From Lachnospiraceae bacterium (GTDB lineage Bacteria > Bacillota > Clostridia > Lachnospirales > Lachnospiraceae), in the NCBI GenBank assembly GCA_022510565.1, contig JAFLTE010000006.1:62001-126000 (forward strand): a stretch of 64,000 nucleotides of DNA. The letters run 5' to 3'. The notes beneath the pieces were generated by a model. That model worked only from the letters and a program-made list of their open reading frames with translations. It was not told the origin of the DNA and ran no database searches. The translations under genes and the position numbers were made by a program. Positions 10,075 through 29,381 of the stretch are shown here, in pieces; position 1 is the stretch's first letter, and the number at the start of each line of letters is the position of its first letter.

Positions 10075-10103
10075 AACCCAATATTTCCTCCCTTTCCATC
10101 CCA

Positions 10104-10132: not shown

Positions 10133-10152
10133 AATAAAAAAAGGACATAATT

Positions 10153-12644: not shown

Positions 12645-12664
12645 TTCTGTTCCCCGCGATCTTG

Positions 12665-13582
12665 TTATCGCTGTTTCTTTACCTGCCTGGCATTCTGAAA
12701 CTGCAAAAGCAATCCGTCAATTTTACCACGGATGAACGCTTGATGTTCCTCTTTAACAAGAAAATATAAATAAGATTCTTTTACATAGTCTATTGGCATT
12801 CCTCTTCCTGCAATCTTAAAATTTTGAAATCCTCTTTCTATATAAGCGCCAATCTGCTCATTGGAAATAAAAGCAGGACGTTTCTTACATTCCTCAAATG
12901 TCCGCTGTCTGCTGCGGTTCGGACAGGGAAAACTTGTGTCCGTATCAAATTCAAGCTGCAATCTGGACTGCTGCAGATAATGCTGTTCTCTTAAGTCGCA
13001 CCCCGGATAGCATACCTCATTTACCAGTATCTCCACGCGTTCGGCATATGGTCCGATGGCTTCCAATGCTTTCTCGTCATGGTTTAAATCATAATCCAGT
13101 ACCACCAGATAATAATCTTTTTCTAACTCCTCTTTGAGCTTCTCCGTATTCAGGATTCGCTTGGTGGTCGAGGAAATCATTTTATAATTTGGATATTCCT
13201 GTCGTATATACTGTTCTAGGACCGGCGAATTCACAAGCACTTGATTCAGTCCATTATTCGCCAATCTCATAATCAAGTTGCAATAGGTGTCGTATATGTG
13301 CTTTTCCTCAAGCAGGCTGTTGGTCCACGTAAAACGCACGGGAATTCCCCTGCTGTTGTAAATCTTAAGAACGGATTCCATCTCAGATTTTCCGGTGAAA
13401 CCCGCCACGGCTCGTCCTCCGTTCCAGATAGCACCCGGAAAAGTACCATAGACTGAACCCACTTTGTAGCCCTCACGAAATTTATCCGGATAATCCTTCA
13501 TCATATTAAGAATCACTTGATTCAAAAGCCTGAAATAACAAAAGCCCGGTAAATGCCAATATATTTCTTTTTTGTTCCTCAT
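12665..13582 (-). CDS. U32-like TIM-barrel protein with candidate Fe-S cysteines (copy 2)
   Basis: 305 residues from ATG at 13582; this start aligns with the paralogue at 7637-8587 and follows an AAAGG site, whereas an ATG 13 codons upstream has none. Shared with copy 1: HLPG near the start, WNGGR, GIPVRFTWTNSLL, NGLNQVLVNSPVLE, LVVLDYDLN, EILVNEVCYPGC, GFQNFKIAGR. Conserved cysteines here are Cys101, Cys191, Cys195 and Cys220. The two copies bracket GH43, the regulator and GH10, which ties the family to hemicellulose use. A U32-type Fe-S enzyme or a catalytically inert U32 fold are both possible; I rate the fold assignment as moderate only. Confidence 0.55.
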   Translation of the reverse strand: MRNKKEIYWHLPGFCYFRLLNQVILNMMKDYPDKFREGYKVGSVYGTFPGAIWNGGRAVAGFTGKSEMESVLKIYNSRGIPVRFTWTNSLLEEKHIYDTYCNLIMRLANNGLNQVLVNSPVLEQYIRQEYPNYKMISSTTKRILNTEKLKEELEKDYYLVVLDYDLNHDEKALEAIGPYAERVEILVNEVCYPGCDLREQHYLQQSRLQLEFDTDTSFPCPNRSRQRTFEECKKRPAFISNEQIGAYIERGFQNFKIAGRGMPIDYVKESYLYFLVKEEHQAFIRGKIDGLLLQFQNARQVKKQR

Positions 13583-13631
13583 TCTTTTCAGCCTTTCTTT
13601 ACGTGAGATCTTATAAATCATTTTTTTAGAA

Positions 13632-13661
13632 AGAGGATGATGTCATAAAACACCATCCTCT
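13632..13661 (-). terminator. Hairpin after the second binding-protein gene
   Basis: On the minus strand AGAGGATGGTG pairs with CATCATCCTCT (one G-U pair) around an eight-base loop, followed by TTTCT and an A-run. It lies between the stop of the binding-protein gene (13694) and the U32-like gene starting at 13582. The U-tract is short, so it may be a partial terminator or a processing site that lowers expression of the genes downstream. Confidence 0.5.
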
Positions 13662-13693
13662 CATTGTTGTAAATCTAAATTATCTGAATAATA

Positions 13694-15205
13694 TTATTCA
13701 GCCGCATCTTCAGCAGGCTCTTCCGGAAGTTCATCAATCTCTCCGTTAGCATATGCCAGATAGCTAGCCCACTGATTTCTGATTGCCTCGGCTGCTACTG
13801 CAGGCGGATTATCAACACTTAAGCCCCACATAAACTGTGAACCAAGGTCAAGACCCGGAATCAACTCATGATAGGAGTTCATGCCGTTCTCACACAATCT
13901 CGTAATGGTCAAATCAACGGATTCCATATCCCTAAACTGATTGTAGTATCCGCTAAGTCTGTCATTGTAATCCTCATAACCGGGTACAGGGTTCTTGTAT
14001 ACATTCAGCGCAAAAGCAATCTTCCATGCCCTATCTGCATCATAGCAAGCAGGGATTGCAAACGGATTGTCGTTGTACAGATTGGTGTAATCTGTCGCAT
14101 TGGGTCCCATCGGGAAGCATACGAAACCAAAATCGTCTTCCATATCCTTAAACTCGTTTGCAGCCATATATACTTCACCTGCAAGGAATGCGGCATTGCC
14201 TGCCGGGAAAGCGGTCTTCCACCAATCCCACTCAGCACCTTCAGGTTTGTACAGATATTTAGACATCATGTCAATTGCCCAGTTAAGTGCCTGAAGAGTT
14301 TCGTCAGTCTCTGTCTTATTGACATACTTACCGTTCTCCATACCGATGTACTCTGTATTGTTGGACCATACGGACATATTCTTAAACAGGGATTCATCTG
14401 TTACAAGTCCCCAACGGTCGATTACGCCGTCATTGTCGGTATCCGCTGTGATCGTCTCACAGAGTTCCTCGAACTTATCCCATGTCCACTCGCCGCTTTC
14501 CTGCCACTTATAAATATCAGCAGGATCAATGCCGGCCTCTTCCAGAAGTCTCTTGTTGAAGAAAACTCCTCCTCTGGGCTCCGGAATCTCAGGGAAACAA
14601 GCATAGATAGCGCCGTTCTTAGAACACAGCTCATGCACGCCGCTGACCCACTTCGCCTCGGAGAAATCAAGACAATCCAATGTAGACAGATCATACATCA
14701 AACCGTTGTTCATTGCAGATACGAACTCAGGACCTTTACGCAGAATCCATACATAATTGTTGTCATCACCGCCGCTGGTAACATAGTTCAGGTAATCCTC
14801 AGGAGTGGAACCCCAGTCACTGATCGCAATCTGAGTAATTTTGAAATTATAGGTGTCCTGAACCCACTCTTGGTACTCCTGACGAGCCTCCTCGAATGCA
14901 TCTGTGGGCTCTTCTTCCTCGCCTGAGCTCCACCAGTCGCGAATTACGATTTCCATACCTCCCAGGTCGTACACGTTGCCATTCTCATCCGTTAAAGCAA
15001 CGTAGCCGCCCTCCTCGGCTCCATCGTCAGTCGAATCCGTACCTTCCGTATCGGAAGGGGTTGTGTCTGCGACAGGTTCCTGAGTGTCATTGCCGGCAGA
15101 ACCTGCATCGGGAGTGGTAGAATCATTGCCACATCCGGCAAGACTTGCCGTCATAGAAACAACCAGAGAAGCCGCCAACACTTTGTTCAGCGTTTTTCTT
15201 TTCAT
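13694..15205 (-). CDS. Carbohydrate ABC importer substrate-binding lipoprotein (second importer)
   Basis: 503 residues with a strong AAAGGAGG site. Signal peptide with lipobox SLAGC (Cys25), a Thr/Asp/Gly linker to about residue 65, then a family 1 extracellular binding domain: QEWVQDTYNFKITQIAI, MYDLSTLDCLDFSEAKW, GVFFNKRLLEEAGIDPADIY with WTWDKFEELCETITADTDND (the usual sugar-binding-protein block), and FPAGNAAFLAGEVYM. An acidic tail closes it. CUT1-type proteins bind oligosaccharides; the neighbours point to a hemicellulose product. It lies 138 bases downstream of its permease genes (15344-17249), an order (permeases first) opposite to that of the first importer. Confidence 0.92.
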   Translation of the reverse strand: MKRKTLNKVLAASLVVSMTASLAGCGNDSTTPDAGSAGNDTQEPVADTTPSDTEGTDSTDDGAEEGGYVALTDENGNVYDLGGMEIVIRDWWSSGEEEEPTDAFEEARQEYQEWVQDTYNFKITQIAISDWGSTPEDYLNYVTSGGDDNNYVWILRKGPEFVSAMNNGLMYDLSTLDCLDFSEAKWVSGVHELCSKNGAIYACFPEIPEPRGGVFFNKRLLEEAGIDPADIYKWQESGEWTWDKFEELCETITADTDNDGVIDRWGLVTDESLFKNMSVWSNNTEYIGMENGKYVNKTETDETLQALNWAIDMMSKYLYKPEGAEWDWWKTAFPAGNAAFLAGEVYMAANEFKDMEDDFGFVCFPMGPNATDYTNLYNDNPFAIPACYDADRAWKIAFALNVYKNPVPGYEDYNDRLSGYYNQFRDMESVDLTITRLCENGMNSYHELIPGLDLGSQFMWGLSVDNPPAVAAEAIRNQWASYLAYANGEIDELPEEPAEDAAE

Positions 15206-15343
15206 AATTAATCCTCCTTTTTAGTTTATGGATATATTATATACCTCCTGATGTTTATACCGGATTATGTCCGCACACCATGAAGAATATATACGCTTGA
15301 AATTTATACTCGCAGACTCGCACCTTCAGTACTTTTTAGCCTG

Positions 15344-16351
15344 CTACATCTTAATACCGGAACTGCTGATACTCTCTACAAAGCCCTTCTGTGCAAACAA
15401 ATACAGAATCAGCAAGGGAACAATCACCATAAGTGTTCCGGTGGATACAATACAGTTGGTATACCCGACGGATGCACCGCCCGGATTCTTAAGCACATTA
15501 ATTACATATACATCCATTCTGTCGGCAAGCACCGAAAGTTGTGTGGAGAGAAGCTGTAGGTTTCCAAGGAACATCTTGGAATAGAATCCGTCCGTCCACT
15601 GCCACACAAAGGAGAACAGGAAGCAGGATGTCAGGATAGGTTTTGCATCCGGCAACATGATTCGCACAAATGTCATAAATGTTCCACAGCCGTCCACATA
15701 TGCCGCCTCCTCAAGCTCCTTCGGAATATTGCGGAAAAACTGTCTGATCATGTATATGTACAGTCCGTTCTTCAGTCCCATACATCCCGCACTCATCAGA
15801 TAATAGGGAAGCACCGAACCTCGAAGATTGAGTTCCTCACCTCTGATAAGTTTAATAATTCCCAAGACATCAAAATACCTGAAATGCAGATGTAAGGAAG
15901 TCGATATTGTCTGTGGAGGCACTACGATTACCAAAATCACGCATGCAAACCATAGATTCTTTAACGGAAAGTTATATCTGGCAAAACCGTATCCGACAAG
16001 CGTGCATACCGCAATCTGCAGAAGTGCAATCGTCAAGGATACAAGCAATGTATTAATCAGAGAACTCTGATACGACATAAAATCGGATGTCAGCAAATAA
16101 TTATCCGTAGTAAAGTGCTCCGGAACGGAAATTACCATGGGGTTATATAAATCTCGCTCCTCCATAAAACTTACGGATATTTTCATCAGAATGGGCTGCA
16201 AAATCAAAAAGCACATACCGAAGAGCAGGAAGAAGCGCACCACCTTATAGGCAGCGTCAAATGAGGTCTTTCTGAGCAAATATCCTCCCGATTTCCTATT
16301 TCTCTCCCAGAAATTCCCTTTGGAAATTTTCTCATCTTTATGCTTAATCAT
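15344..16351 (-). CDS. Carbohydrate ABC permease, MalG-type (second importer)
   Basis: 335 residues from ATG at 16351, preceded by AAAGGGG; it overlaps the stop of the preceding permease by eight bases. Six hydrophobic segments lie between about residues 40 and 330. The cytoplasmic EAA loop is visible as NIPKELEEAAYVDGCGTFMT with GxxxxFxxIxLPDAKP following, the contact for the ATPase. The periplasmic-side loop between spans one and two is long (LYNPMVISVPEHFTTDNYLL), normal for the family. Forms a heterodimer with the product of 16344-17249. No ATPase gene is present in the locus, so a shared MsmK-like ATPase is expected to energise it. Confidence 0.92.
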   Translation of the reverse strand: MIKHKDEKISKGNFWERNRKSGGYLLRKTSFDAAYKVVRFFLLFGMCFLILQPILMKISVSFMEERDLYNPMVISVPEHFTTDNYLLTSDFMSYQSSLINTLLVSLTIALLQIAVCTLVGYGFARYNFPLKNLWFACVILVIVVPPQTISTSLHLHFRYFDVLGIIKLIRGEELNLRGSVLPYYLMSAGCMGLKNGLYIYMIRQFFRNIPKELEEAAYVDGCGTFMTFVRIMLPDAKPILTSCFLFSFVWQWTDGFYSKMFLGNLQLLSTQLSVLADRMDVYVINVLKNPGGASVGYTNCIVSTGTLMVIVPLLILYLFAQKGFVESISSSGIKM

Positions 16352-17249
16352 AGTAGTAAACCCCTTTCGATATAATAAATGAACTGATACCGATAATGGC
16401 AATAACCACCACGAAGTAAATCCAAGACATGGCCGAGGCGAAGCCGTAGTTGATGTAGCCTATCATCTGCTCGCTGATTTTTTCCACCAATTCATTATCC
16501 GATCTCATACAGAAATCTACTATGGTGTATACCCAGTTTACCAAGAACAGGGAGCTAATCATGGGAAAAGTAATCTTCCACAAGCTCTCCCACGCGGTAC
16601 AACCCTCGATATCCGCCGCCTCGTACATATTTACCGAAATGGTCTGCAGTCCCGACAGAAAGATGATAATCTGAATACCCGATGCGATTGCCACATCATA
16701 GATGGTATCCACAATCTTAAATACTTGTCTGAACGCGGAGACACCGATACCGGAGGTTATAAGAATATTCTCAACGGCTGTGGTAATGCTGGTGGTATTG
16801 GTAGTCTCTTCCACCATCGTCTGCACACTGGCAAGCAGCGCATTATTGGTTTCCACACCCAGAATAACTCCTGAGGAGAGAATAACCGGAAGGAAAAAGA
16901 TTGCTCTCACCAATGCCCTGCCTTTAAACTTTTGATTCAAAATCAATGCCACGAAGAAACTGAACACCATAATTGCCAGAGAATTGATGCACATTCTGGA
17001 TATTTCCTCGGTCAGCAACCGATTAAATTCCGTATCAATGGTAAAAGCCTGCATATAGTTTGATAATCCCGTAAAGGTATTGGTATTTCCTGACGGACTT
17101 ACCTGCACATTGCAGAAACTCATATACAGAGACCTAAACAGCGGTGTGATCATAAACGCCAGAAATCCGATGATAAACGGCGAAATAAACAGATACCCTG
17201 CTATCGCTTTTCTTCTTTCAAGACCCACCAGTTTTTTACGCTTCTTCAT
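16344..17249 (-). CDS. Carbohydrate ABC permease, MalF/UgpA-type (second importer)
   Basis: 301 residues from the ATG at 17249, chosen over an ATG seven codons earlier because AAAGGA precedes it. First membrane span GYLFISPFIIGFLAFMITPL carries the SP(F)xxGF start typical of MalF/UgpA permeases. The EAA loop is MYEAADIEGCTAWESLWKIT. A long extracellular loop (residues about 130-190, Thr/Val-rich with VEETTNTTSITTAVENI) separates spans and is unusual compared with close relatives. It begins 43 bases after the DUF5696 gene and overlaps the next permease gene by eight bases. Confidence 0.92.
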   Translation of the reverse strand: MKKRKKLVGLERRKAIAGYLFISPFIIGFLAFMITPLFRSLYMSFCNVQVSPSGNTNTFTGLSNYMQAFTIDTEFNRLLTEEISRMCINSLAIMVFSFFVALILNQKFKGRALVRAIFFLPVILSSGVILGVETNNALLASVQTMVEETTNTTSITTAVENILITSGIGVSAFRQVFKIVDTIYDVAIASGIQIIIFLSGLQTISVNMYEAADIEGCTAWESLWKITFPMISSLFLVNWVYTIVDFCMRSDNELVEKISEQMIGYINYGFASAMSWIYFVVVIAIIGISSFIISKGVYYYD

Positions 17250-17291
17250 ACCCAATTCCTTTCTATCCAACCACTCTGCAGCTTATCAGTC

Positions 17292-19886
17292 TCAGCGAAT
17301 TACCAGGTAATCTCTCGCCGGAATACTCTGTCCTTCAGGCGTCTCTAACACATCATAGCCATAGTTCACATATACCTTGGTACCGTCCTCATACTCCGTA
17401 CAGGTCAGATTGGCGCTTAACATCGTATGGTCGGTCATCTTCTGATTAAAGACGTGCCCCAATTCCTGATTATATCTGTTATAAATCTCTAAAAGTCTCG
17501 GTCGTGCAGTATCATACTCTGCACCGAAATATTGCGTATACAGTGTATTCTGCAAAGTAAACGCCGACTCATCCATCAATGTGAAGGCAAGCCCCGCACC
17601 GTACTCAGCAGACCTTAACAACTCCTCTTCCTGATTCTGAGTCATATTTAAGGATTCTCCGGTATAGTTTACATATCCGTGAATCGCCATCTGATAAACC
17701 GGCACGGTGGCATCCAATATGGTATAATCTGAACCTTGCATATCCATATTGGTTACAATATCGCTGTAACCAATTGCATAATTATTGCCCATGTTTATCA
17801 TAATTTTCTTGTCGTCGCTCTTAATCTCATTAAGCTTCGCCACCTGACTATCCAACATGCTCTGTCTGGACGCCGGATTCTTTTTATAGAAATCGGAACT
17901 CAAATCTTTACCGATATCCGAAAAAGAAACATTTGCCCCATAGGTGTCAGCCGCCGCCGCCAAATTATCCACCATTTCGGGAATCAATGTCGATTTCAGC
18001 AGATAATGGGGTTCCTGACCCTCTCTTGCCGAATAGGTGACAGTGGAGTAGGGATGTATCTCAGCCTTCTCCTTGCTGGCAAACCTGGCTGCATCTCTAA
18101 AAGTCACAAATCCGTCCAAAATATCACTGTCATATGCATAGTTTGTAATTCCGTCAAGGTATAAGTCAATGTCATTGTCTCTTGCATAAGCCGTCAGGTT
18201 CTTCAAATCTTTCTTGCTTCCCAAATCCGAAACCAGATGTACATCGTTAAGAATTCTCTGTTGCACGCCGCCGTTCATCCATCCGGAAAGCTTAACACTC
18301 ATGTTCTGCACGCCGTCCTGCTGCAGCTGCGTTAGGATGTCCTGCGCCTCACGGAATGTAGTCAACTCCAGCGGCCGTGTCATGGGGATACCGACCACCT
18401 GCTTGACTTTATCTACCGCACCCACAATCTCGATCACCATGGGAGTGCTCTGGTCCTGCCGTTCCGTCAGCAGTTCTCCGAACTCCTCCTGCAGATATTT
18501 ACGATAGGCAAGCGCCATGTCGGAATAGTCCGCAGAATCTATGAACCGATAGCTCTGTACCAGAGTTTCGGACGGCAGTCCGTCCTGATACATATAAATC
18601 TTACTCTCATAGCGCTCTCCCACCTCATACACTTCCCTATGTACCATCGTATACTGAGCATATGTAGCATTGTAGCTATTGTTCATTCCGCTGATTTCCG
18701 CCGTAATACCGGCGTATGGTGCAGTCTGCTCAAGTACGCATAAGAATGAAGAGCCGTTGTTGGCGATACCGAATGCATTGAAATACGTGTTGGTCTCATG
18801 TACCACCGCATCTCTGTACTGTGCGTAATCCCAACCGTACATATTCGCATAGTAAGCACTCTGTGCGGTTTTGCCGTTGTTGAAGTTGATAATGCCGCCG
18901 CCGCCCTCCGGCACCAGCATGTATCCGGAATCCTGTGTTCCGCCGGCGCCCATATATGGCAATACGTTCAAATAATAAATAGGGTATTTTTCTCTGTATT
19001 CAATCTCGTCAAACGGAACTTCAACAACAAGTTTATCACCGTCCAGATGATAAACCATATTGATATTGAACAGGGGCGTCTCTGCCGCTTCCTGCTCTCC
19101 GCTTTCACCCATGTCCTCCAAGTATTCCTCATAGGTATATCCCGCTTCCTCAAATATATCCTGAAGCATTCCTTTAACGTTATCGCCGACACTGTCTCTG
19201 AGGACATATGCCACTTCGTCCGCCAGTATGGGATATGCTGCAAGAAGTTCATCTTTATTGTCCTTCTTGCCCAGTTTGTTAATATCGTATTTCTTATAGT
19301 AACCCGTTACACGTGTTTTCGTTGTATTATCCATCTCAGCGGTCAGCGCATCCATACGCGCCTCACTGATTACCTTGGGAATGACAAATTCTTTCTGTAC
19401 ATTACCGATGGAGTAACATACTTTTATATAATCATCTCCCTGCTCTATCTCGTACAGGCCCTTGGACATACTGTAATCATAGTTGTTAAAAATTGTATCA
19501 ACGCCGTTTACTGTGCTGTAAGTCAATACAATCGTGGATTTAAGCTTCGATTTCTCCAAGGGCAGCGCAATGGGATCCTCATCCGCTTCCGGCGGATTGG
19601 AATACCAGACCGCTCCGTCACTCTTATTGGTTACGGTAAACTGCGTAGTAGCCGTATCCAATTCGAATTTGAGGCTGTCGTTTTCTAAAACCAATATCTC
19701 CTCATCACCTACAAATCCTTTAACTTCAATCGGCTCTGCAACTTCATCCTCGTCACGATATAAGGCTACCACTAATATACCTGCCACAATAATAAGCAAG
19801 ATAACCATCGGACCTGCCAGACTCTTTATCCAATTTTTTAATGCAGCTTTCATTTCAGCATTTCTGACCGCTTTGTCCTTTTTCAT
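17292..19886 (-). CDS. DUF5696 membrane-anchored, glycosidase-like protein
   Basis: 864 residues. A single membrane segment (about 25-43) after a basic N-terminus places the bulk outside the cell. Residues about 65-300 form a beta-rich domain (LKFELDTATTQFTVTNKSDG, AVWYSNP) like the N-terminal sandwich of large glycosidases. Residues about 480-780 alternate strands and helices as in a TIM barrel: MVIEIVGAVD, GVQNMSVKLSGWMNGG, DIDLYLDGITNY, ANVSFSDIGKDLSSD, KIMINMGNNYAIGY, GAGLAFTLMDES. Asp578 and Asp657, at strand ends, are candidate catalytic acids. Residues 820-864 form a small beta domain (GTKVYVNYGYDVLETPEG), again common in such enzymes. I recognise the family as DUF5696; catalysis is inference. 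It lies between the YIP1 gene and the second importer. Confidence 0.75.
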   Translation of the reverse strand: MKKDKAVRNAEMKAALKNWIKSLAGPMVILLIIVAGILVVALYRDEDEVAEPIEVKGFVGDEEILVLENDSLKFELDTATTQFTVTNKSDGAVWYSNPPEADEDPIALPLEKSKLKSTIVLTYSTVNGVDTIFNNYDYSMSKGLYEIEQGDDYIKVCYSIGNVQKEFVIPKVISEARMDALTAEMDNTTKTRVTGYYKKYDINKLGKKDNKDELLAAYPILADEVAYVLRDSVGDNVKGMLQDIFEEAGYTYEEYLEDMGESGEQEAAETPLFNINMVYHLDGDKLVVEVPFDEIEYREKYPIYYLNVLPYMGAGGTQDSGYMLVPEGGGGIINFNNGKTAQSAYYANMYGWDYAQYRDAVVHETNTYFNAFGIANNGSSFLCVLEQTAPYAGITAEISGMNNSYNATYAQYTMVHREVYEVGERYESKIYMYQDGLPSETLVQSYRFIDSADYSDMALAYRKYLQEEFGELLTERQDQSTPMVIEIVGAVDKVKQVVGIPMTRPLELTTFREAQDILTQLQQDGVQNMSVKLSGWMNGGVQQRILNDVHLVSDLGSKKDLKNLTAYARDNDIDLYLDGITNYAYDSDILDGFVTFRDAARFASKEKAEIHPYSTVTYSAREGQEPHYLLKSTLIPEMVDNLAAAADTYGANVSFSDIGKDLSSDFYKKNPASRQSMLDSQVAKLNEIKSDDKKIMINMGNNYAIGYSDIVTNMDMQGSDYTILDATVPVYQMAIHGYVNYTGESLNMTQNQEEELLRSAEYGAGLAFTLMDESAFTLQNTLYTQYFGAEYDTARPRLLEIYNRYNQELGHVFNQKMTDHTMLSANLTCTEYEDGTKVYVNYGYDVLETPEGQSIPARDYLVIR

Positions 19887-19928
19887 TCCGACTTCTCCCT
19901 AACTTTATTTACCTACCTCAATTAATTC

Positions 19929-20585
19929 CTACATTCGGAACAGAATTTCTCTTCCCAATGATATGAAATATGCTACGCCTGAACTGATCATACTGAAGAA
20001 CAATAAGAGGATAAAAACCATAACCAGCATGGCAAAGCCGGTAACCACCGTAAATAGCAGATTTTTGCTCATTTTATATTCATGAATTTGGGACATACCC
20101 GCTAAAATCAATATCGCCGACCATATGATGGAAAAGGCACTTAACACATAATAAAATGCTCCTTCTTGCACCGTCACCACGTTGCTTAGAATAATCAGCG
20201 GAAACTGAATGAGCGGATACGGAGTCATACCATAACAGGTTGCCATGTATACCTGAGAGAGCCTGCCCTTGCCGTCAAACAGCGTGGTGAGTCCCCAGTT
20301 GCCCACACACCACAGTGCCAAAGGAAACAGTATACTTGCCAAATACATGAAGATATTAATCTTCGGCCAGTAAACCTTCATAAAGAGGAAGCTGGTAAAC
20401 TGAAGCTTCATAATCCTCGCCGCCAGTACAAGTATCAAAATTGTATTGGCCGCTGCGATAGATCCTCTCTTCTCGTGGGATAAATCCCAAAAACCGTCCA
20501 GCGGATGGGTAATACAATACAAGGAAAACTTCAGTGTTTTAAAATAATGCTCATATGTTTCTTTTCTTTTTAAAGCTGCTAACAT
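19929..20585 (-). CDS. YIP1-type integral membrane protein
   Basis: 218 residues from ATG at 20585, which follows GGAGG at five bases; an in-frame TTG seven codons upstream lacks a ribosome site. After a cytoplasmic start (LKFSLYCITHPLDGFWDLSHEKRG) come five or six membrane segments between about residues 45 and 215, with the WCVGNWGLTTLFDGKGRLSQ and YMATCYGMTPYPLIQFPLII stretches that define bacterial YIP1 domains. Function in bacteria is unknown. Four bases separate the longer frame from the stop of the NHL gene, so the two are cotranscribed. Its position between NHL and DUF5696 genes suggests a membrane scaffold for those extracellular domains (inference). Confidence 0.8.
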   Translation of the reverse strand: MLAALKRKETYEHYFKTLKFSLYCITHPLDGFWDLSHEKRGSIAAANTILILVLAARIMKLQFTSFLFMKVYWPKINIFMYLASILFPLALWCVGNWGLTTLFDGKGRLSQVYMATCYGMTPYPLIQFPLIILSNVVTVQEGAFYYVLSAFSIIWSAILILAGMSQIHEYKMSKNLLFTVVTGFAMLVMVFILLLFFSMISSGVAYFISLGREILFRM

Positions 20586-20609
20586 ACCTGCCTCCGATCG
20601 TTTCAATGC

Positions 20610-22100
20610 CTACTTAATACCAGCTCTCGCAATCTCCTGCTTAATTTCACGAATCCTGCCTATGGCAAGCGGAACGGCCAACAGAACAAATACCACTAAG
20701 AAAATAACAACGATATGTTCCTCCACCCATTCCTTCCTGTACTGTTTAAATGCCCTGGAATAGTTATCTTCATCATATTTCAGTCTGAAATAATCAAGCG
20801 CTTCCTCGTATTCCTCCTGTCTTAACAAGGCCCGACCCAATCCGATATATGCCAGATCGTAATTTCCGTTCATATCCATAACTGCACGCCAGCTTTCTCC
20901 CGATTCCTCATAGAATCCGTCTTGGAACTGTTCAATCGCGTTAAAGATATTATTACCGTATTCCGTAGGGGTAAAGAGTGTCAGGCTTCGATCCAATGCA
21001 TCCAAAACAATCAAATCATGCCCCATATGATCAAGCGCTGTCGGCTGCTTGAAGTAACCGTTCATATTACCGTTACCGCCGAAACAGAACAACATTCTGC
21101 CTTGATCGTCATAGGCGAAAATTCTGCCTCTGTTCCTATCAAGCCCGAAAAATACATCATTGTCCATAGCCGTCACATCAGTTATCAGGGAAATACCCTC
21201 ATAGCCGCCGCCGGAACCAAAATAGAGGTCGCCGATTACCGGATACTCACCGTTGCGTACCATAATGTCGCTTCCCATCATGTTCAGCTTCCTGATGGGA
21301 GTCGCATCACCATTGTCCACATCCTCTTCTGTCACCCTAGAGGTGCAGGCGTAGATGAAGCCTTCATAGTCCATATACAGGTTGTCATACTCGGTGGGAA
21401 TAAAGCTCTCCATCTGCGCTCTCTGCGCTTGAGTTGCCAACCGTTTCCAAATATAATCCGTCCAGTCGTAAGTAACAGGAGTCGCGCCCACAAATCCGGA
21501 AAACACGCCATCATTTTCAAACTTAATCAAACCTCTGTTGACATTGGTAGCCACACAGTAAACTCTTCCGGCCGTATCAATGGCAATCTTACTCGGCAGA
21601 AAACTTAAAGACTGATCAAATGTGGCATCCGTAGGTTTGTCGAATTCCATCACATACTCTCCGTCCATAGTCAGCTTAAGAATTCTGTTGTTATTCGAAT
21701 CAGCCACATACATATAACCATCATCGGAAACCGCTACGTCTGTGGGGGAATTAAAAGTTTTCACCTCCACATCTCCGGTGATACTGTCAATAGAACGGAC
21801 ATATGTAATGGTATCCGTGTCAGTTCTCTCCAATTCCAGAATACGGTTGTTACCCGTGTCGCACACATAGATAGTTCTATCCACAATAAACAATCCCTGC
21901 GGCGAGCTTAAGCCCACGTCCAACCCAAGCTCCACTGATGTGTACACTCCTACCATCTTGTAGGCATCGGGCGAGTATTGTACGTCTCCCCAATAATCAT
22001 AACAATAGGTGTACCCTTTCTCCGCCATGACAGTCATGCTGCTTACCGACAGCAAAAACACGCATAAAATTAATGATGCTATTCTTTTCATCTTCTTCAT
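20610..22100 (-). CDS. NHL-repeat exported membrane protein with TPR-like C-terminal part
   Basis: 496 residues. A signal peptide (residues 1-26, ILCVFLLSVSSMTVMAEKG) leads into a beta-propeller at about 55-385 built of NHL repeats: PQGLFIVDRTIYVCDTGNNR, SPTDVAVSDDGYMYVADSNN, PSKIAIDTAGRVYCVATNVN, QPTALDHMGHDLIVLDALDR. Residues about 390-450 are helical with the AYIGLGRALLRQEEYEEALD motif of a tetratricopeptide unit, followed by a membrane span (VIFLVVFVLLAVPLAIGRI) and a short cytoplasmic tail. So the propeller is outside the cell, tethered at the C-terminus. NHL propellers bind carbohydrates or proteins; the ligand is unknown. Gaps of 14 and 24 bases link it to the permease and YIP1 genes. 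Confidence 0.85.
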   Translation of the reverse strand: MKKMKRIASLILCVFLLSVSSMTVMAEKGYTYCYDYWGDVQYSPDAYKMVGVYTSVELGLDVGLSSPQGLFIVDRTIYVCDTGNNRILELERTDTDTITYVRSIDSITGDVEVKTFNSPTDVAVSDDGYMYVADSNNNRILKLTMDGEYVMEFDKPTDATFDQSLSFLPSKIAIDTAGRVYCVATNVNRGLIKFENDGVFSGFVGATPVTYDWTDYIWKRLATQAQRAQMESFIPTEYDNLYMDYEGFIYACTSRVTEEDVDNGDATPIRKLNMMGSDIMVRNGEYPVIGDLYFGSGGGYEGISLITDVTAMDNDVFFGLDRNRGRIFAYDDQGRMLFCFGGNGNMNGYFKQPTALDHMGHDLIVLDALDRSLTLFTPTEYGNNIFNAIEQFQDGFYEESGESWRAVMDMNGNYDLAYIGLGRALLRQEEYEEALDYFRLKYDEDNYSRAFKQYRKEWVEEHIVVIFLVVFVLLAVPLAIGRIREIKQEIARAGIK

Positions 22101-22114
22101 ACGCCACCTCGTGT

Positions 22115-23014
22115 TTAGTCTTTCAAACCTGAACTTGCCATGGTCTCCAAGATCTGACTCTCAGAGAAGACGAATATCAAAATAGGAACTATCATTACTA
22201 CTACCAGTACGGCTGCCGCCTGACCGGTTCTCGCAATACCACCGCTCTGAATCTGCTGCAACGCATATACAAGAGTCTTTCTCTCCTCGGAGTAGATAAA
22301 TGTTGCTGCCTTGTTATTCCAGAGTGCCTGCACGGAAAAGATAATCAGTGTCATCCATGCCGGTTTAACATTGGGCATTACGATACCATAAAACACTTTC
22401 CATTCACTGGCTCCGTCTATTTTGGCCGCTTCAATCAAGGACATAGGCAATCCTTCCATAAACTGCTTCATCAGGAAAAGGCCCATGGGGGAAGCAAATG
22501 CAGGGATAATAATTGCCCAGTATGTGTCTACCCAGCCCAATGCATTGATAATCAAATAGTTCGGAATCGCCGTTACGTAACCGCTGAACATCATGGCCAC
22601 CGTTACCAGACCAAAAAAGGTTTTATTGCCCGGGAAATCATACTTTGCAAGTACAAAAGCACCCATGGACGCGATGATTAGATGTCCGGCAGTTCCCACA
22701 ACCGTAATAAACACGGTGTTGAAAAGATATCTGGAAAAAGTCACCCATGATTTGCCCATCGTCACAAACAAATCCGAAAAGTTATCAAAGGTTGGATTCC
22801 TCGCAAATATCTTGGGCGGGAACATAAACAACTCGTCAAGCGGCTTCATTGCATTGTTTACTGCATACACAATCGGGAAGACCATGACAACAGCCACAAG
22901 GACCAGAAACAGATATAAAAAGATGTCCCCGACGATGGAGCGGTTTGGCTTCCTGCGCTTGATCAGCTTCTTCCGATATACCTCTGGTTGTTCTTTTTTC
23001 TTCTTCTTGCTCAT
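22115..23014 (-). CDS. Carbohydrate ABC permease, MalG-type (first importer)
   Basis: 299 residues with a Lys-rich cytoplasmic start, six membrane spans from about residue 28, and the EAA loop GLPMSLIEAAKIDGASEWKV followed by IVMPNVKPAW. The ending (ASSGLKD) is the family's usual C-terminus. It starts one base after the stop of its partner permease, showing translational coupling, and is followed after 14 bases by the NHL gene. Together with 23016-23954 it should form the channel for the binding protein encoded at 23973-26921; the ATPase is not encoded here. Confidence 0.93.
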   Translation of the reverse strand: MSKKKKKEQPEVYRKKLIKRRKPNRSIVGDIFLYLFLVLVAVVMVFPIVYAVNNAMKPLDELFMFPPKIFARNPTFDNFSDLFVTMGKSWVTFSRYLFNTVFITVVGTAGHLIIASMGAFVLAKYDFPGNKTFFGLVTVAMMFSGYVTAIPNYLIINALGWVDTYWAIIIPAFASPMGLFLMKQFMEGLPMSLIEAAKIDGASEWKVFYGIVMPNVKPAWMTLIIFSVQALWNNKAATFIYSEERKTLVYALQQIQSGGIARTGQAAAVLVVVMIVPILIFVFSESQILETMASSGLKD

Positions 23015-23015
23015 A

Positions 23016-23954
23016 TCAGGTTCCTACTCTCCTCAGCATACTCTGAATCGCCTTGTTGCATAAAATCATAATCAAAAACAGCATGGTTGCTATTGCTGAC
23101 GCATAACCCATCTCGAATCTCGAATAACCGTAGTCAAACAAGTGGGTTACTACTGTTCGTGCCGCGTAATCGGTACTGGGATAACCGCACAGCGCCATTG
23201 TTACGTCACACACACCAAAAGACTGGGTAATTGCCATAACCGCGCCGAACATCAACATGGGCTTCATGTTGGGAAGCGTAATATACCACAGCTCCTGCCA
23301 TCTGTTCTTCACACCATCCATATATCCGGCCTCAAACTGGGACTTATCAACACCCTGAAGTCCGGCCACGAAGGATAGGAATCCTGTACCAAGACTCATC
23401 CACAAGATAACGAGCATACAGATCGGCAGCATATAGTCAGGGTTGATGAGCCACAATATAGGGGCGTCAATAATGCCCAGATCAATCAGCAAAGCATTCA
23501 CATAACCGTAGGCATCTCCTCTGAAGAACACGGAGAAGATTACGTAACAGTTTCCCGCAATAGACGGGGCATAGAATATTACTACCGCAATACTTCTGAC
23601 CCAGCGGGGCAGCTCGTTAATCAGCCACGCAAACAGAAACGACATAATATAGCCGAGCGGACCGGTAATTACCGCAATCATAAATGTATTCTTGATACCG
23701 ATCAGGAAGATGTCATCCTCCAGAATCAAGCTGATATAATTCTGTAATCCGACAAACCGGGGGCTCTCCAAAATATTGTAGTAGGTAAAGCTGAAAAATA
23801 TGGAAGTCACCACAGGCAGTATGTAAAACAAAGTGAACAGTATCGCGTACGGTGCCAGAAACGCATAACACATCTTGCTTCGCTTGGCTTTCTTTATTGC
23901 AATCTGTGTGTTCTGCCTACGCAATATCATATATTTTCTAAAAAAATCTTTCAT
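23016..23954 (-). CDS. Carbohydrate ABC permease, MalF/UgpA-type (first importer)
   Basis: 312 residues, strong GAGGGAG site. A basic N-terminus is followed by a first span starting CYAFLAPYAILFTLFYILP, then five more spans. The EAA loop reads FEAGYMDGVKNRWQELWYIT and is followed by LPNMKPM. The Glu-Ala-Ala core is altered to Glu-Ala-Gly here. It is 18 bases downstream of the large binding-protein gene and directly abuts the MalG-type permease gene. Confidence 0.93.
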   Translation of the reverse strand: MKDFFRKYMILRRQNTQIAIKKAKRSKMCYAFLAPYAILFTLFYILPVVTSIFFSFTYYNILESPRFVGLQNYISLILEDDIFLIGIKNTFMIAVITGPLGYIMSFLFAWLINELPRWVRSIAVVIFYAPSIAGNCYVIFSVFFRGDAYGYVNALLIDLGIIDAPILWLINPDYMLPICMLVILWMSLGTGFLSFVAGLQGVDKSQFEAGYMDGVKNRWQELWYITLPNMKPMLMFGAVMAITQSFGVCDVTMALCGYPSTDYAARTVVTHLFDYGYSRFEMGYASAIATMLFLIMILCNKAIQSMLRRVGT

Positions 23955-23972
23955 GCCTTCTCCCTCTTTCCC

Positions 23973-26921
23973 TTACTTGACCGGCAATCCAAACTCTATC
24001 CGCTTCTTGGTAATCTCTTCATCTATCGTTATGGAATAATCGATGATCGTCTCACGCGGGTCGTCCTTATCATTGATTACTTTACGTATCGCATTGGTAA
24101 TGTGACGACCTGTATAGTAACCGCCGGGTACTTCTCTGATGCCCACTGTCCATTTCCACTGTTCGGTTAAAACTTCAATATCGTCAGCACTCCAAGACAG
24201 ATTCGAGAAAGCATCCTTATTGGCTGTGGCGTATCTTGCGGAGGATCCGAGCAGCGCCTCGATTTCACGTCCGAAACGCACCTGCGTATCAGTATCCGCC
24301 CACCACTTCATGAATTCCCATGAATTATTCCTAAGCTGTTCATCCTCTGTCTTGATCATCATCGTAGCGCTTCCGGTAATCATATCCGAACGGTCAATGT
24401 AGACATTGCCCTGCTCATCCACACGTTCCGTACCCGGAATCAACGTGAAATCCCACAACCCACGAATCTCGGGTGCTGATACCATCAGCGTATTATAATT
24501 GGAATATGCCATAACGCCTATAGGCATCTCCCCTGAACGGAATCTGCTGACAAAATCATATATGCTGGGAATTCCGTAATCGTTAAAGTATCTTGTGTAA
24601 TCATCAAAAGCTCTTACGCCTGCTTCCTCATCTACAATCGTATATGTACCCTCATCGTTGTACAAATTGCCGCCGTACTGGAACAGCAAGCTAAAGTACA
24701 TGGACAAATCAGGGGCATTGGATGCCACGGAAGTACTTGGCGTAGACGTACTACTGCTTCCCGCGGCAGTGGGTATCGCTATCGACATATTGTTACCCTG
24801 TATGGTCGGAAGCATCTCAATCAACTCCTGCCATGTGTTGGGTATTTCCAGTTCAAGCTCCTCCAACACATCCTTCCTGTAGAACATTACATTGAAAGTC
24901 TGCGTCTCAGGTATTGCGTAAATATGTTCATCCAGCCGATACTGCTCATAAGAACTTGCCTCATAGTGCTGCAATACATCCTGTAGATCCGAGAACTGCG
25001 TGAGATCCTCCACTGCATTTCTGAGTGCGTAGTTCACGGGTTGATCTGCGCCGACCGACAGCACCACATTGGGTCCCCGTCCCGCAACCACTGCATTTAA
25101 GAGCGCATCCGGCGCGACGATCTCTACGTTGACCTTAATGTTCGTGTTGGGAGTGAAGGTATCGTCTATCATGGACTTGAGAATTGTACCCTGATCACGT
25201 CCCGTCAGCACCCATACCGTTACAACTTCATCCGTGTCGTCATATACATCTCCGACTGCGTCATAGTCTACCACGAAAGAAGCACCGAAAGATTTGACCT
25301 CATGCCAGAGCTTCGCAAACATGGTCTCCGTATCTTTATCGGGCTTGCTGTCCACGCCGGTTACCACCAGATAATCTATATCCAGCATAGTCGAACTCAT
25401 GTTAAGGGAAGCGGTTCCCAGAGCCGTTATATTATCCTTAAAGCTGACAAACTCAAGCGTAACCTTTTGAGGCTTCTCCACAAATCTCTCCAGCTGCTGG
25501 GCCACCGTCTGCGCGGAAGCAATGCTGTCTGCTTTCTGTCCGCTGTAGGCAACCATATCATCCACAATCTTGTAGAGACGCTTGGACTCTAGATCCATGG
25601 CCTCCATTACTTCGGGATATACCTGATGTATGTTGTAATCCCTGTATTTATCCGGTGTGGCGCCTGTGTACACCAATACCTTTCTATACATCTGATTCAG
25701 ACGATAAATAGAATCTTCCAACTCCTCCAGAATGGGACCTGCGCCTCCCAGAGTCGCTTCCAATCTGATGGTATGTACCCCTTTGGTCAGATAAAATTCA
25801 TAGGGCACGCCCTCTTCATCTTCCAAATTCTTACAATTCCACTCGTTGCTGTATGCAAAGGAAATTTCCTTCATCTCTTCAAAAGGTATTTCCCCATCTA
25901 TATACACGCTTCTGCTGGACACACTGCCTCGTGAATAGTTCTGGCGTCCTTTAATCATAATATTGTAATATCCGTCTTCAGGCACTTCAAATTCCCACTC
26001 AATCCATTGACCCGAACTTCTCCATGCCTCTCCTCCGACATAATTCAGTACAGTATTGGTCACGCTGTTGGGCTGTGTGGACGGTGAGGATCTGTCATAT
26101 TTTGCATAAAGGGATGACTCTGAACGATAGGTGGAATCTTCTCCCTGAATAACATGCAGATAGTCGAGTCCCGGACCCGTGGCGCTTGTTGCGGGCTGCG
26201 ATGCGCGATACTCCGCATAGTCGGGCAGCGTCTGTACCCCTGCAACCGAAAACTTCTTTAAAACTAACGGCTCGTTCTCCGCCTCCAGCGTAATCTGATT
26301 ATTGCCCTTTTCTAAATAAAACAAATAGGGATCTGTAATATAACCCATATCATCCTTGAAATAAGCATTTTGCCAGTCGAATACTTCTATCTGTGTGGGA
26401 CGAATCTGATTGCCCTGATTATCCACTCTGACCTCGCCGCCGTTGGTCCATATCCTTGTAAAAGTTATATTGGCCGCATCCTCGAAAGGACGTTCACCGT
26501 TTATATAGACACCTCGTTCTACAGCCACACCTCTGGATTCCGGTGCAAGATATTCTATGTAGAAATTGTAAAAACCGCTCTCCGGCACATTCACATTCCA
26601 AGTAACCGTGGACGCGACACCGGTATAAAGAACTTTATCAACGCCTTCATAATCGGTATATACCTCTACATCCTGAGCATCTTCATAATCAAACAAATCG
26701 ACGTCGATGTTGCAGTCAGGATAGGCCGCATCCGCATGTACAGACAAATATTCCGTGTAAGTACCTTCTCTCTCCATACCTTCCACTCCGGCAGAAAGAT
26801 CACGTCCTGCATATTTGTCACTGAAATTTTCCGTTTCGTTTCGTGTGATTAGAATGACAATAATTGCAATCGCTGCCACAATTGCCGCTCCTGCAATTAT
26901 TTTTTTGCCGTAATATTTCAT
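23973..26921 (-). CDS. Membrane-anchored binding protein fused to two CBM-like domains (first importer)
   Basis: 982 residues, about twice the usual binding-protein length. The N-terminus has a membrane segment (residues 8-26) but no lipobox Cys, so it is tethered by an uncleaved anchor rather than a lipid. Two related beta-sandwich domains follow at about 85-228 and 285-395; both contain (E/S)GFYNFYI or DGYYNIMIKG and a (V/Y)YI(N/D)GExPFEx motif, and end with a FYLxKGxxxIxLEA strand, like CBM35/CBM6-type modules. A helical linker spans about 400-480. The family 1 binding domain covers about 565-982 (TIQGNNMSIAIPTAAG, MPIGVMAYSNYNTLM, NSWEFMKWWADTDTQ). GGAGG precedes the ATG. It is the first gene of the 27-to-13.7 kb run. 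Confidence 0.88.
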   Translation of the reverse strand: MKYYGKKIIAGAAIVAAIAIIVILITRNETENFSDKYAGRDLSAGVEGMEREGTYTEYLSVHADAAYPDCNIDVDLFDYEDAQDVEVYTDYEGVDKVLYTGVASTVTWNVNVPESGFYNFYIEYLAPESRGVAVERGVYINGERPFEDAANITFTRIWTNGGEVRVDNQGNQIRPTQIEVFDWQNAYFKDDMGYITDPYLFYLEKGNNQITLEAENEPLVLKKFSVAGVQTLPDYAEYRASQPATSATGPGLDYLHVIQGEDSTYRSESSLYAKYDRSSPSTQPNSVTNTVLNYVGGEAWRSSGQWIEWEFEVPEDGYYNIMIKGRQNYSRGSVSSRSVYIDGEIPFEEMKEISFAYSNEWNCKNLEDEEGVPYEFYLTKGVHTIRLEATLGGAGPILEELEDSIYRLNQMYRKVLVYTGATPDKYRDYNIHQVYPEVMEAMDLESKRLYKIVDDMVAYSGQKADSIASAQTVAQQLERFVEKPQKVTLEFVSFKDNITALGTASLNMSSTMLDIDYLVVTGVDSKPDKDTETMFAKLWHEVKSFGASFVVDYDAVGDVYDDTDEVVTVWVLTGRDQGTILKSMIDDTFTPNTNIKVNVEIVAPDALLNAVVAGRGPNVVLSVGADQPVNYALRNAVEDLTQFSDLQDVLQHYEASSYEQYRLDEHIYAIPETQTFNVMFYRKDVLEELELEIPNTWQELIEMLPTIQGNNMSIAIPTAAGSSSTSTPSTSVASNAPDLSMYFSLLFQYGGNLYNDEGTYTIVDEEAGVRAFDDYTRYFNDYGIPSIYDFVSRFRSGEMPIGVMAYSNYNTLMVSAPEIRGLWDFTLIPGTERVDEQGNVYIDRSDMITGSATMMIKTEDEQLRNNSWEFMKWWADTDTQVRFGREIEALLGSSARYATANKDAFSNLSWSADDIEVLTEQWKWTVGIREVPGGYYTGRHITNAIRKVINDKDDPRETIIDYSITIDEEITKKRIEFGLPVK

Positions 26922-26958
26922 GTCTTCCTCCAGATATGCGCACGCATTGATAAACTCT

Positions 26959-26999
26959 TTTATGTAAAAAGTACAAATATTTAATAAATTTTACATAAA
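26959..26999 (-). promoter_or_regulatory. Perfect 11-bp inverted repeat upstream of the first importer operon
   Basis: TTTATGTAAAA (26959-26969) and TTTTACATAAA (26989-26999), arms 30 bases apart centre to centre, about three helical turns. A weak sigma-A-like pair (TTGCGA ... TAAAAT on the minus strand) overlaps the distal arm. TACTTTTTACA on the minus strand (26963-26973) recurs at 10106-10116 in front of the AraC gene, so this may be the regulator's binding site. Confidence 0.4.
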
Positions 27000-27066
27000 T
27001 TTTTGTCTTTTTCGCAACTCAACCCTTGCTATTACATACTTGTTTTTTGCGTTTCCTGATAACATG

Positions 27067-27103
27067 AAAAAGGCAGCTATAAACAATTTTGTTCATAACT
27101 GCC
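27067..27103 (-). terminator. Intrinsic terminator of the GH13 gene
   Basis: On the minus strand GGCAGTTATGAAC pairs with GTTTATAGCTGCC around a short AAAATT loop with two interruptions, followed immediately by TTTTT (complement of 27067-27071). It separates the GH13 gene from the importer operon that starts at 26921. Confidence 0.8.
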
Positions 27104-27134
27104 AAAAATAAGCCGTTTAAATTATTGTACTTTA

Positions 27135-29264
27135 CTAACTAAACTGCAGAAAACTTTGTACAACCGGATTCTCATAGCGCAGAATAATTGCGGAAGTTGG
27201 CGGAAGCGTTACCGTCACATTACCCGATACAACCGCATATTCCTTTTCCTCCGTCGTATATCCGTCCGCCGTAGTCAGAATTAACTGCTTCATTGCGCAC
27301 TCCATCGGAACACCCAGATACCAGACCGAGAATTCCTTGGTAATCTCATAGTCATTATTATTGACTACAATCAGCGACTGCGCCTGTCTGGTGAATCTGC
27401 CGAAACCGAGCACATTGTAATCGCCTTCCATGTGTTTGAGGGAACCTGTCAAAAATTCCTTACACGTCTTATGAATACGGATAATATCCTTGTGGAAATT
27501 AATCAGTTCATGATCTTCATGTCCCCACGGATAGGTCCGCCTGTTATCCGGATCAGTAAATCCGCACACACCGGCTTCATCACCGTAATAAATGGTAGGC
27601 GCGCCGGGCCACGTCATCTGAATTACTACCGCTTCCCGCAGCACCGCCTTATTGACACCTGTATTCGCCGCTTCCGCTCCCAGCGTATTTGTCCTGCCGA
27701 CTTTGCGGTTGGTTCTGGTCAGGAAACGGGAATGGTCGTGATTGGAAAGCTCATTCATCGCCACCTGCAGGGAAGGTGTCGTAAAACTTGCTCCGTGGTG
27801 CTGCATAGCACCCCAGAAGCTGTCCACATTACCCCTCAGGTCCTCACGGTAATCGTCGCTGTGCTTCTGCATACCTGTCAAAAACCATGTCACCGGCTCC
27901 ATAAACGCATCATAGTTCATAACAGTATCCCACTCATCACCCAAAAGCCAGTCTTTGGGACTGCCGTAATGCTCCGCCAATATGATGGCATTGGGATTGG
28001 CCGCCTTGACAGTCTTGCGGAATTCCTTCCAGAATGTATGGTTAAATTCGGGGGAATGACCTAAATCCGCCGCCACATCCAGTCTCCAACCGTCTACATT
28101 GTACGGCGGGGAAACCCATTTACGCCCAATATATAGAACATAATCTATCAGATGTCTGGAATTTTCATAATTGAGTTTGGGAAGTGTATCATGTCCCCAC
28201 CACCCATCGTATGTGCTGTTGTAAGGCCACCTATGATCATCCGTGAATTGAAAATAGTCATGGTACACACTGTCCTGCGCAATGTAAGCGCCCTTCTCGT
28301 ACCCCGGTGCATTCTCATAGATCCGCTCCCTGTCCATCCACTTGTTAAAAGAACCACAGTGATTAAACACACCGTCCAAAATGACCTTAATTCCTCTTCT
28401 GTGCGCTTCCTTGACAACCTCTGCAAAGAGGTCATTGCTTGCCTCTAAGTTTTCTTTATTGGATACGCGGTCAATATATCTCGTCGCGAAACGATTCTCC
28501 TGCTGCTCCGGTGCAAGCAGTTCTCCCTCATCATGAACAATTTTACCGAAATGCGGGTCAATATAATCATAGTCCTGTATGTCGTATTTATGATTGGACG
28601 GAGACACGAACAACGGATTAAAATAAATCACATCTATTCCAAGCTCCTGAAGATAATCCATCTTATCCAATACGCCCTGCAAATCGCCGCCATAGAATTC
28701 TCTGACACCCATGGTTGCAGGGTATTTATCCCAGTTTTCAACCTTAACCGTCTTATCACCGATATACTGATACTCATTCGTCAACACATCATTGGAAGGA
28801 TCTCCGTTATAAAAACGGTCCACATATATCTGATAGAAAACCGCTCCTTTCGCCCATTCCGGTGTCTTGAAGCCCGGAATCAGCCGGAAATGATAATATT
28901 CATTGATATCCTTGCACACACCCCGCATGTCATAATAACAGGAAATCTTACCGACATGCACCTCAAAATAATAGACTAATGTCTCATTCTCCAACTGTAC
29001 AGAGTGAGAATAGTAATCAAACCTACTATCAGTTTCCGTCTTGAGCATAAGGTGCTTCTCCCCTTTGCTCACCAAAAATACTCGGTCAATATTATTTCTC
29101 TTTGAACGAAAACGAATACTGACCTCCCCGTAAGCACTCGGCTCGGGCGGGTACACATAATCCTCCGTCATATCCGAGAACAACGCTTTCCTATTGAATA
29201 CCGGACGCATGGACGTTAGGTACTGATGATTCTTTTCTACTCTCTGAAACTGACTGATATCCAT
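27135..29264 (-). CDS. GH13 neopullulanase / cyclomaltodextrinase-like enzyme
   Basis: 709 residues, no signal peptide, so cytoplasmic. An N-terminal beta domain (about 1-130) of the CBM34/N-domain kind precedes the GH13 barrel (about 140-570): VFYQIYVDRF, DVIYFNPLF, VILDGVFNHCG, DGWRLDVAAD with nucleophile Asp396, IILAEHYGSP with acid/base Glu431, and ELSNHDHSRF with Asp510. A C-terminal beta domain ends the protein. Such enzymes hydrolyse short maltodextrins or cyclodextrins. It has its own promoter and terminator, so it is a separate unit next to the importer operon. Confidence 0.9.
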   Translation of the reverse strand: MDISQFQRVEKNHQYLTSMRPVFNRKALFSDMTEDYVYPPEPSAYGEVSIRFRSKRNNIDRVFLVSKGEKHLMLKTETDSRFDYYSHSVQLENETLVYYFEVHVGKISCYYDMRGVCKDINEYYHFRLIPGFKTPEWAKGAVFYQIYVDRFYNGDPSNDVLTNEYQYIGDKTVKVENWDKYPATMGVREFYGGDLQGVLDKMDYLQELGIDVIYFNPLFVSPSNHKYDIQDYDYIDPHFGKIVHDEGELLAPEQQENRFATRYIDRVSNKENLEASNDLFAEVVKEAHRRGIKVILDGVFNHCGSFNKWMDRERIYENAPGYEKGAYIAQDSVYHDYFQFTDDHRWPYNSTYDGWWGHDTLPKLNYENSRHLIDYVLYIGRKWVSPPYNVDGWRLDVAADLGHSPEFNHTFWKEFRKTVKAANPNAIILAEHYGSPKDWLLGDEWDTVMNYDAFMEPVTWFLTGMQKHSDDYREDLRGNVDSFWGAMQHHGASFTTPSLQVAMNELSNHDHSRFLTRTNRKVGRTNTLGAEAANTGVNKAVLREAVVIQMTWPGAPTIYYGDEAGVCGFTDPDNRRTYPWGHEDHELINFHKDIIRIHKTCKEFLTGSLKHMEGDYNVLGFGRFTRQAQSLIVVNNNDYEITKEFSVWYLGVPMECAMKQLILTTADGYTTEEKEYAVVSGNVTVTLPPTSAIILRYENPVVQSFLQFS

Positions 29265-29301
29265 GTGTTATGTTTTCCTCCGAAAAACTGCATATATGGT
29301 T

Positions 29302-29330
29302 ATTGTATACTATATATTGTGTTTATTCAA
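29302..29330 (-). promoter_or_regulatory. Sigma-A promoter of the GH13 gene
   Basis: Minus-strand TTGAAT (complement of 29325-29330), 17-base spacer, TACAAT (complement of 29302-29307), located 38 bases upstream of the ATG at 29264. A GGAGG ribosome site lies in between. Confidence 0.6.
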
Positions 29331-29381
29331 GGATTTTAATCATAATTTCGCTAGATTTGGCGTTAGATGCTCTTAAACGGT

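Follow-up and report, generated by a model that had tools for sequence, protein, structure and literature searches.

A conserved cassette of two sugar importers with NHL, YIP1 and DUF5696 proteins in Lachnospiraceae: a candidate machine for the uptake of plant fibre sugars

A run of nine genes from a Lachnospiraceae bacterium looks like an undescribed machine for catching and importing the sugars of plant fibre. The run lies in a 64,000-nucleotide stretch (hereafter the window) of contig JAFLTE010000006.1, which belongs to a 3.2-Mb draft genome in 135 contigs. It occupies 13694–26921, all on the minus strand, in the order SBP-A, PA1, PA2, NHL, YIP1, DUF5696, PB1, PB2, SBP-B, where SBP denotes a solute-binding protein and PA and PB the permeases of importers A and B. 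Comparison across genomes revealed that this cassette is made of two blocks, SBP-A/PA1/PA2 and NHL-YIP1-DUF5696-PB1-PB2, which are normally found together. Judged from the sequences, it is rather probable that the nine genes form one functional unit for oligosaccharide uptake at the cytoplasmic membrane.

Layout and conservation of the cassette

SBP-A (23973–26921, 982 amino acids) matches Pfam SBP_bac_8/SBP_bac_1. The permeases of importer A, PA1 (23016–23954) and PA2 (22115–23014), match BPD_transp_1 at 6.2e-13 and 1.8e-16 and carry the EAA loops EAGYMDG and EAAKIDG, respectively. These are followed by an NHL beta-propeller protein with TPR (20610–22100, Pfam NHL 1.5e-12), a YIP1-type multi-span membrane protein (19929–20606, Pfam Yip1 1.8e-12) and a DUF5696 protein with a GH129 glycosidase fold and one N-terminal hydrophobic segment (17292–19886, Pfam DUF5696 7.5e-190). 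In importer B, PB1 (16344–17270) matches BPD_transp_1 at E 0.14, below the cut-off, and carries the EAA loop EAADIEG, while PB2 (15344–16402, with the ATG start probably at 16351) matches at 4e-12. SBP-B (13694–15205, SBP_bac_1 4.8e-10) is a lipoprotein with a lipobox found by pattern. The initial annotation had described a nine-gene minus-strand run with two binding proteins and two permease pairs; coordinates and Pfam agree with it, PB1 being recognised through its EAA loop, and its statement that the run lacks an ATP-binding cassette (ABC) ATPase also holds, as none lies within the nine genes.

According to the list of open reading frames (ORFs), the spacings in order from SBP-A are 18, 1, 14, 3, 42 and 21 bases. 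PB1 and PB2 overlap by 8 bases if PB2 starts at 16351, and PB2 is 138 bases away from SBP-B. The run extends beyond SBP-B: a U32-like gene follows after 72 bases, and a GH43 gene after another 20. The transcription unit probably starts at SBP-A, because a terminator-like hairpin (27072–27103, minus strand, 14 pairs followed by TTTTT) separates SBP-A from a GH13 gene. The hairpin is a consensus match, and such sites number 21 in 10000–29600 against 13.4 (standard deviation 3.2) in shuffled sequences. An inverted repeat upstream of SBP-A (26959–26999, TTTATGTAAAA...TTTTACATAAA) was dismissed as a conserved regulatory element, since it occurs in the window and at 0/131 other loci, a comparison in which some SBP-A starts may be misplaced. 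No Rfam family reached its gathering score in 8000–32000.

The gene order was followed in several sets of genomes. In a sample of 200 genomes of the family, 59 were above the DUF5696 cut-off; 43 of them gave strong matches (E < 1e-80, a limit set after the list was seen) and the remainder partial ones. The strong matches fall at 73 places, and 56 of the 72 places outside the window were read, going down the list with some skipped, together with four weak places (L090–L093; L numbers denote individual loci). The order from SBP-A to PB2, with NHL and YIP1 separate or fused, was read directly in 44 of the 56. Among the other 12, a contig end truncates five (L036, L048, L056, L064, L079), ORF or labelling faults account for another five (L050, L055, L078, L086, L087), and two, L081 and L069, are real departures. 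In a scan of 486 relatives from named genomes, of which the best 80, mostly titled Lachnospiraceae, were kept, the canonical order was found at 60, every one with separate NHL and YIP1 genes; 17 more are cut at their ends, and in three (L104, L105, L113) an ORF is missing or split. Two plasmid records carry relatives as well. That of Butyrivibrio fibrisolvens shows the canonical order with NHL and YIP1 as separate genes. That of Paenibacillus cellulosilyticus shows the order by annotation, the profile labels having misread its PA2 as PB2, with NHL and YIP1 joined in a single gene and a gene for a UgpC ATPase immediately upstream. Among viral contigs there were two pattern matches and no relative.

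In the phylum sample, DUF5696 was found at E 1e-30 or better in 37/398 genomes from 15 family codes. The loci are canonical in 16 of 26 cases (13 with NHL and YIP1 split, three fused), spanning 10 of the 15 codes, and one more code, f50, has a canonical locus (L207). In L190, L193, L194 and L202 the SBP-A block is placed after PB2 and the two blocks are still adjacent, and in L184, L185 and L200 the module has no adjoining SBP-A block. L189, L195 and L205 contain split or hidden ORFs. Further SBP-A loci are L215 in f106, L208 in f65, which is cut at the end of its stretch, and L214, an SBP-A block without the module from the same genus code as L185. Across all sets nine departures are real, and most other exceptions are contig ends or split or mislabelled ORFs. 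It is from these rearranged and separated loci that the cassette is recognised as two normally adjoining blocks.

The carriers of the eight- or nine-gene block are gut and soil bacteria. When 102 complete loci are compared, conservation is highest in PA1 and PA2; SBP-A, PB1, PB2 and YIP1 are mostly intermediate in identity, NHL and DUF5696 are lower, and SBP-B is the lowest. This ranking fits a constant engine with a variable substrate receptor. The tie between anchored surface proteins and two importers, which had been suggested from the window, is therefore strengthened by conservation, and the NHL-YIP1-DUF5696 order, whose absence from other genomes would have spoken against it, recurs in family, named-genome and phylum loci.

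Co-occurrence points in the same direction. Strong matches to DUF5696, to NHL (alignment E 1e-30) and to the N-terminus of SBP-A (alignment E 1e-20) mark an identical set of 43/200 family genomes, and copy numbers vary somewhat within genomes (e.g., 8 NHL, 7 SBP-A and 6 DUF5696 in G173). In the phylum, SBP-A was found in 43/398 genomes, which cover all 37 with DUF5696, and in 16/16 of those DUF5696-bearing genomes that were searched for SBP-A. The six phylum genomes with SBP-A and no DUF5696 were set aside, as two hold fragments at contig ends (L209, L210) and four hold short weak matches. The three of the latter that were read (L211, L212, L213) lack any permease or module match with the profiles made from the window proteins and their relatives; these are proteins of 530–544 amino acids whose similarity is confined to the N-terminus of SBP-A.

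Binding proteins, permeases and the ATPase

From its N-terminus on, SBP-A has a hydrophobic helix, a pair of beta domains, a helical stretch and, at the C-terminal end, a fold for binding oligosaccharides. This last part matches oligosaccharide-binding proteins, the fold being recognised by re-ranking of Foldseek matches. The N-terminal half, with the beta domains and the helical stretch, is modelled with middling confidence (pLDDT 66). The second of the beta domains is similar to a part of CITase that we take to be its CBM35 (carbohydrate-binding module, CBM), and we infer that the extra beta domains may bind glycan in the manner of a CBM. SBP-B matches the arabino-oligosaccharide-binding protein 6rjy at E 1.7e-9.

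The glutamate and glycine of the EAA loop are kept in PA1 (133/133), PA2 (134/134) and PB1 (158/158), and in PB2 the glutamate is found in 148/157 and the glycine in 157/157. Neither permease pair looks degenerate, since all four proteins keep these residues. PB1 matches the NCBIfam UgpA model at 4.3e-8, below the model cut-off, and its EAA loop is clear.

With the Paenibacillus UgpC protein as query, the best matches in the source genome are two ABC ATPases in frames of 402 and 367 amino acids (51 and 47% identity). UgpC/MsmK-like pieces at contig ends (L198 and L199, covering the first 71 residues at 59% identity and residues 206–368 at 37%) would fit a general MsmK-type gene that the assembly has split. 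Among 169 loci, a strong ATPase match directly beside SBP-A was found only in L033, and L179 has weaker ones upstream. A general ATPase common to both importers is plausible: the cassette has none of its own, and all four permeases retain the EAA loop, at which the ATPase docks.

A probable single uptake unit and its alternatives

Several points weigh against reading the nine genes as one unit. The locus labels come from profiles made from the window proteins and their relatives, and the Fisher value for the family co-occurrence (9e-45) treats related genomes as independent. In L081, PA2 is relocated downstream, and in L069 genes for a response regulator and a Cache histidine kinase stand directly upstream of YIP1, in the usual place of NHL. 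In f50 and f65 the blocks are apart in some copies (L184, L185, L214) and canonical in others of the same codes (L207, L187), and therefore their adjacency is not absolute. The basis for glycan binding by SBP-A is a CBM_35 match below cut-off, one profile match and a middling-confidence model, and the substrate call for the window is drawn from neighbour genes only. The conserved order can also stem from co-transfer of an operon.

On a plainer account, the locus would combine a pair of ordinary CUT1 importers, independent of each other, with three helper genes, all sharing an operon and a regulator in a polysaccharide utilization locus (PUL), with no machine at all. Every SBP and permease family of the cassette is ordinary, the AraC regulator and the glycosidases give the locus the look of a Gram-positive PUL (gpPUL), and the separated copies fit as well. 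We regard this account as unlikely, however, in that 10 of 15 family codes preserve the order despite differing glycosidase neighbours, the genome sets of DUF5696, NHL and SBP-A are identical, and the blocks are still adjacent after rearrangement in the four loci where SBP-A follows PB2. We know of no ordinary gpPUL operon that holds one gene order over such distances.

The second alternative concerns the DUF5696 protein, which could be a working GH129-type surface glycosidase that trims glycans before import. Its match to PF18952 (632.9 bits against a curated cut-off of 25.6) covers model positions 2–612, and its overall fold, again from re-ranked Foldseek matches, is that of GH129. In our reading of the profile alignment, N698 and M699 of the window protein stand opposite two glutamates of the protein at L090, and the acid/base position matches the strand end 695–698 in the DUF5696 model; which of such glutamates is catalytic in NagBb is taken here as an assumption. 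In 133/164 members, the window protein included, neither the acid/base position nor the one next to it holds a glutamate, and 31/164 have one at either. Candidates for the nucleophile are D661, paired by hhalign with D434 of L090, and D657, to which the strand end 652–655 of the model points; they are found in 66/164 and 98/164 members, respectively. With the acid/base glutamate mostly missing, DUF5696 looks like a pseudo-enzyme, and a trimming role is quite improbable, though a different acidic residue may take over. The initial annotation had let the anchored proteins process or present a glycan, and the former function loses its footing in the window and in most relatives. The weak places L090–L093 hold GH129-type enzymes that score against DUF5696, those of L090 and L092 near an SBP and two permeases. 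A 1387-residue DUF5696 ORF (L206) was not used as a fusion, as the match covers only 228 residues.

The NHL protein has hydrophobic segments at 7–25 and 463–481, an N-terminal segment and a C-terminal helix, and its profile matches known NHL propellers and TPR structures. YIP1 scores 47.9 bits against a Pfam cut-off of 28.6 and shows four hydrophobic segments by simple hydropathy. Of 80 scored loci, drawn from the family, plasmid and phylum sets together with the window, 30 have the two fused and 50 have them split. On a tree of 85 DUF5696 proteins, the fused or split state changes seven times, at least six changes being forced by starred branches; this was a quick LG+G4 tree, with some rows of odd composition and one warning of long branches meeting. 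A fusion is also found in the source genome, where a second copy of the cassette on another contig (L034), with a GH43 gene downstream, has a single 682-residue protein carrying both NHL and Yip1 by Pfam. An apparent DUF5696-YIP1 fusion of 1101 residues in L050 was rejected, its extra N-terminus being an unrelated upstream frame. That NHL-YIP1 and DUF5696 form a sensor reporting glycan capture to a regulator, and no part of uptake, is very improbable: regulators do lie nearby (AraC in the window, a histidine kinase and response regulator in L032, and the kinase and response-regulator genes in the NHL position of L069), but they vary while the cassette is constant, an AraC-like gene being found in 43 of 80 flanks, and Pfam finds no signalling output domain in any of the three proteins.

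Flanking genes, proposed machine and known systems

Downstream of SBP-B, the U32-like protein (12665–13621, minus strand) scores 25.5 bits against a Peptidase_U32 cut-off of 22.4, and a second U32-like protein, recognised by its similarity to the first, is encoded at 7637–8608. The GH43 protein (11058–12644, minus strand; Glyco_hydro_43 7.6e-37, GH43_C2 4.7e-22 in its C-terminal domain) has no signal peptide visible at its N-terminus. These are followed by an AraC-type regulator on the plus strand (10153–11085, HTH_18 1.3e-23) and a GH10 xylanase (8641–10104, minus strand, Glyco_hydro_10 3.8e-67), which is a probable surface enzyme in view of its lipobox-like N-terminus (..VSVLMSCGS..). Among the best 80 named-genome loci, a U32-like gene flanks 40, with at least two such genes in 33 of these; 48 have GH10 or GH43 in their flanks, and 43 an AraC-like gene. 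In a survey in which 90 of 125 neighbour proteins were scanned, the commonest among the first 25 of 76 families were GH43 (9), GH130 (7), GH3 (7) and GDSL (5). LacI-type regulators, GH26, GH10, GH5, Melibiase and GH31 were listed twice each and pectate lyases and GH32 once, besides some unrelated metabolic enzymes. The substrate of the window clade is probably xylan, and across its whole range the cassette is not bound to any single glycan. A GH3 gene and a GH127 gene (beta-L-arabinofuranosidase type) stand side by side at 42031–46285, some 15 kb away from the cassette.

If the nine genes do form one uptake unit, NHL-YIP1 would be a membrane scaffold with the propeller and TPR facing outward, and DUF5696 a glycan binder, non-cutting, held next to it. 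The CBM-like beta domains of SBP-A would capture glycan chains and deliver them to the conserved importer PA1/PA2, while the variable lipoprotein SBP-B would supply PB1/PB2 and determine the substrate. Both importers would be powered by a general MsmK-type ATPase. In the window, xylan would be cut by the surface GH10, and the pieces, once imported through the cassette, would be finished by the cytoplasmic GH43. A bolder proposition is put forward only tentatively, with chances that we place clearly below even: a single membrane supercomplex, the Gram-positive counterpart of Sus, in which a constant SBP-A/PA1/PA2 core and a likewise constant NHL-YIP1-DUF5696 docking module pass oligosaccharides to two permease pairs, the dead glycosidase fold serves as glycan guide, and SBP-B and the glycosidases are swapped for each plant glycan.

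In Bacteroidetes, SusC/SusD and surface glycan-binding proteins couple surface capture to oligosaccharide import. The likeness to the cassette is by analogy only, in that surface capture is tied to import; Sus uses a TonB-dependent channel whereas the cassette uses ABC importers, and no Sus family was found in the cassette by Pfam. According to the available part of one study, SusC/SusD homologues are not found in Gram-positive fibre degraders, for which the CBMs of enzymes were suggested as polysaccharide binders (PMC5320581).

The same part defines a gpPUL by a polysaccharide-degrading enzyme, a transport system and a regulator together (PMC5320581). GH10, GH43 and AraC do adjoin the transporters here; however, gpPULs are set by such minimal contents, whereas the cassette is a fixed gene set beside many different enzymes. 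CUT1 importers that share MsmK, the common ATPase described in the available part of a study of Anaerocellum bescii (PMC12710961, preprint), are alike in having an SBP and two EAA-loop permeases in an operon without ATPase, and the cassette has the MalE-like solute-binding protein of such importers. It differs in its two permease pairs, in NHL, YIP1 and DUF5696, and in SBP-A, which has about 1000 residues and extra N-terminal domains. Compared with the GH129/GH101 glycosidases NagBb and ZgGH129, DUF5696 has a hydrophobic N-terminal segment, is mostly without the acid/base glutamate, and gives strong matches only in cassette-bearing genomes among the 200 of the family. No published description of the cassette was found in a literature search that did not cover most subscription papers or supplements, and none is contained in the available parts of PMC6344614, PMC2914790, PMC8579813, PMC12710961 and PMC5320581.

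The cassette reaches 43/200 of the sampled family genomes and 37/398 of those of the phylum. If it is one machine, it would be a dedicated capture-and-import device for Gram-positive fibre degraders, and it would provide a function for DUF5696 and bacterial YIP1 as well as a sequence marker of complex-glycan uptake.
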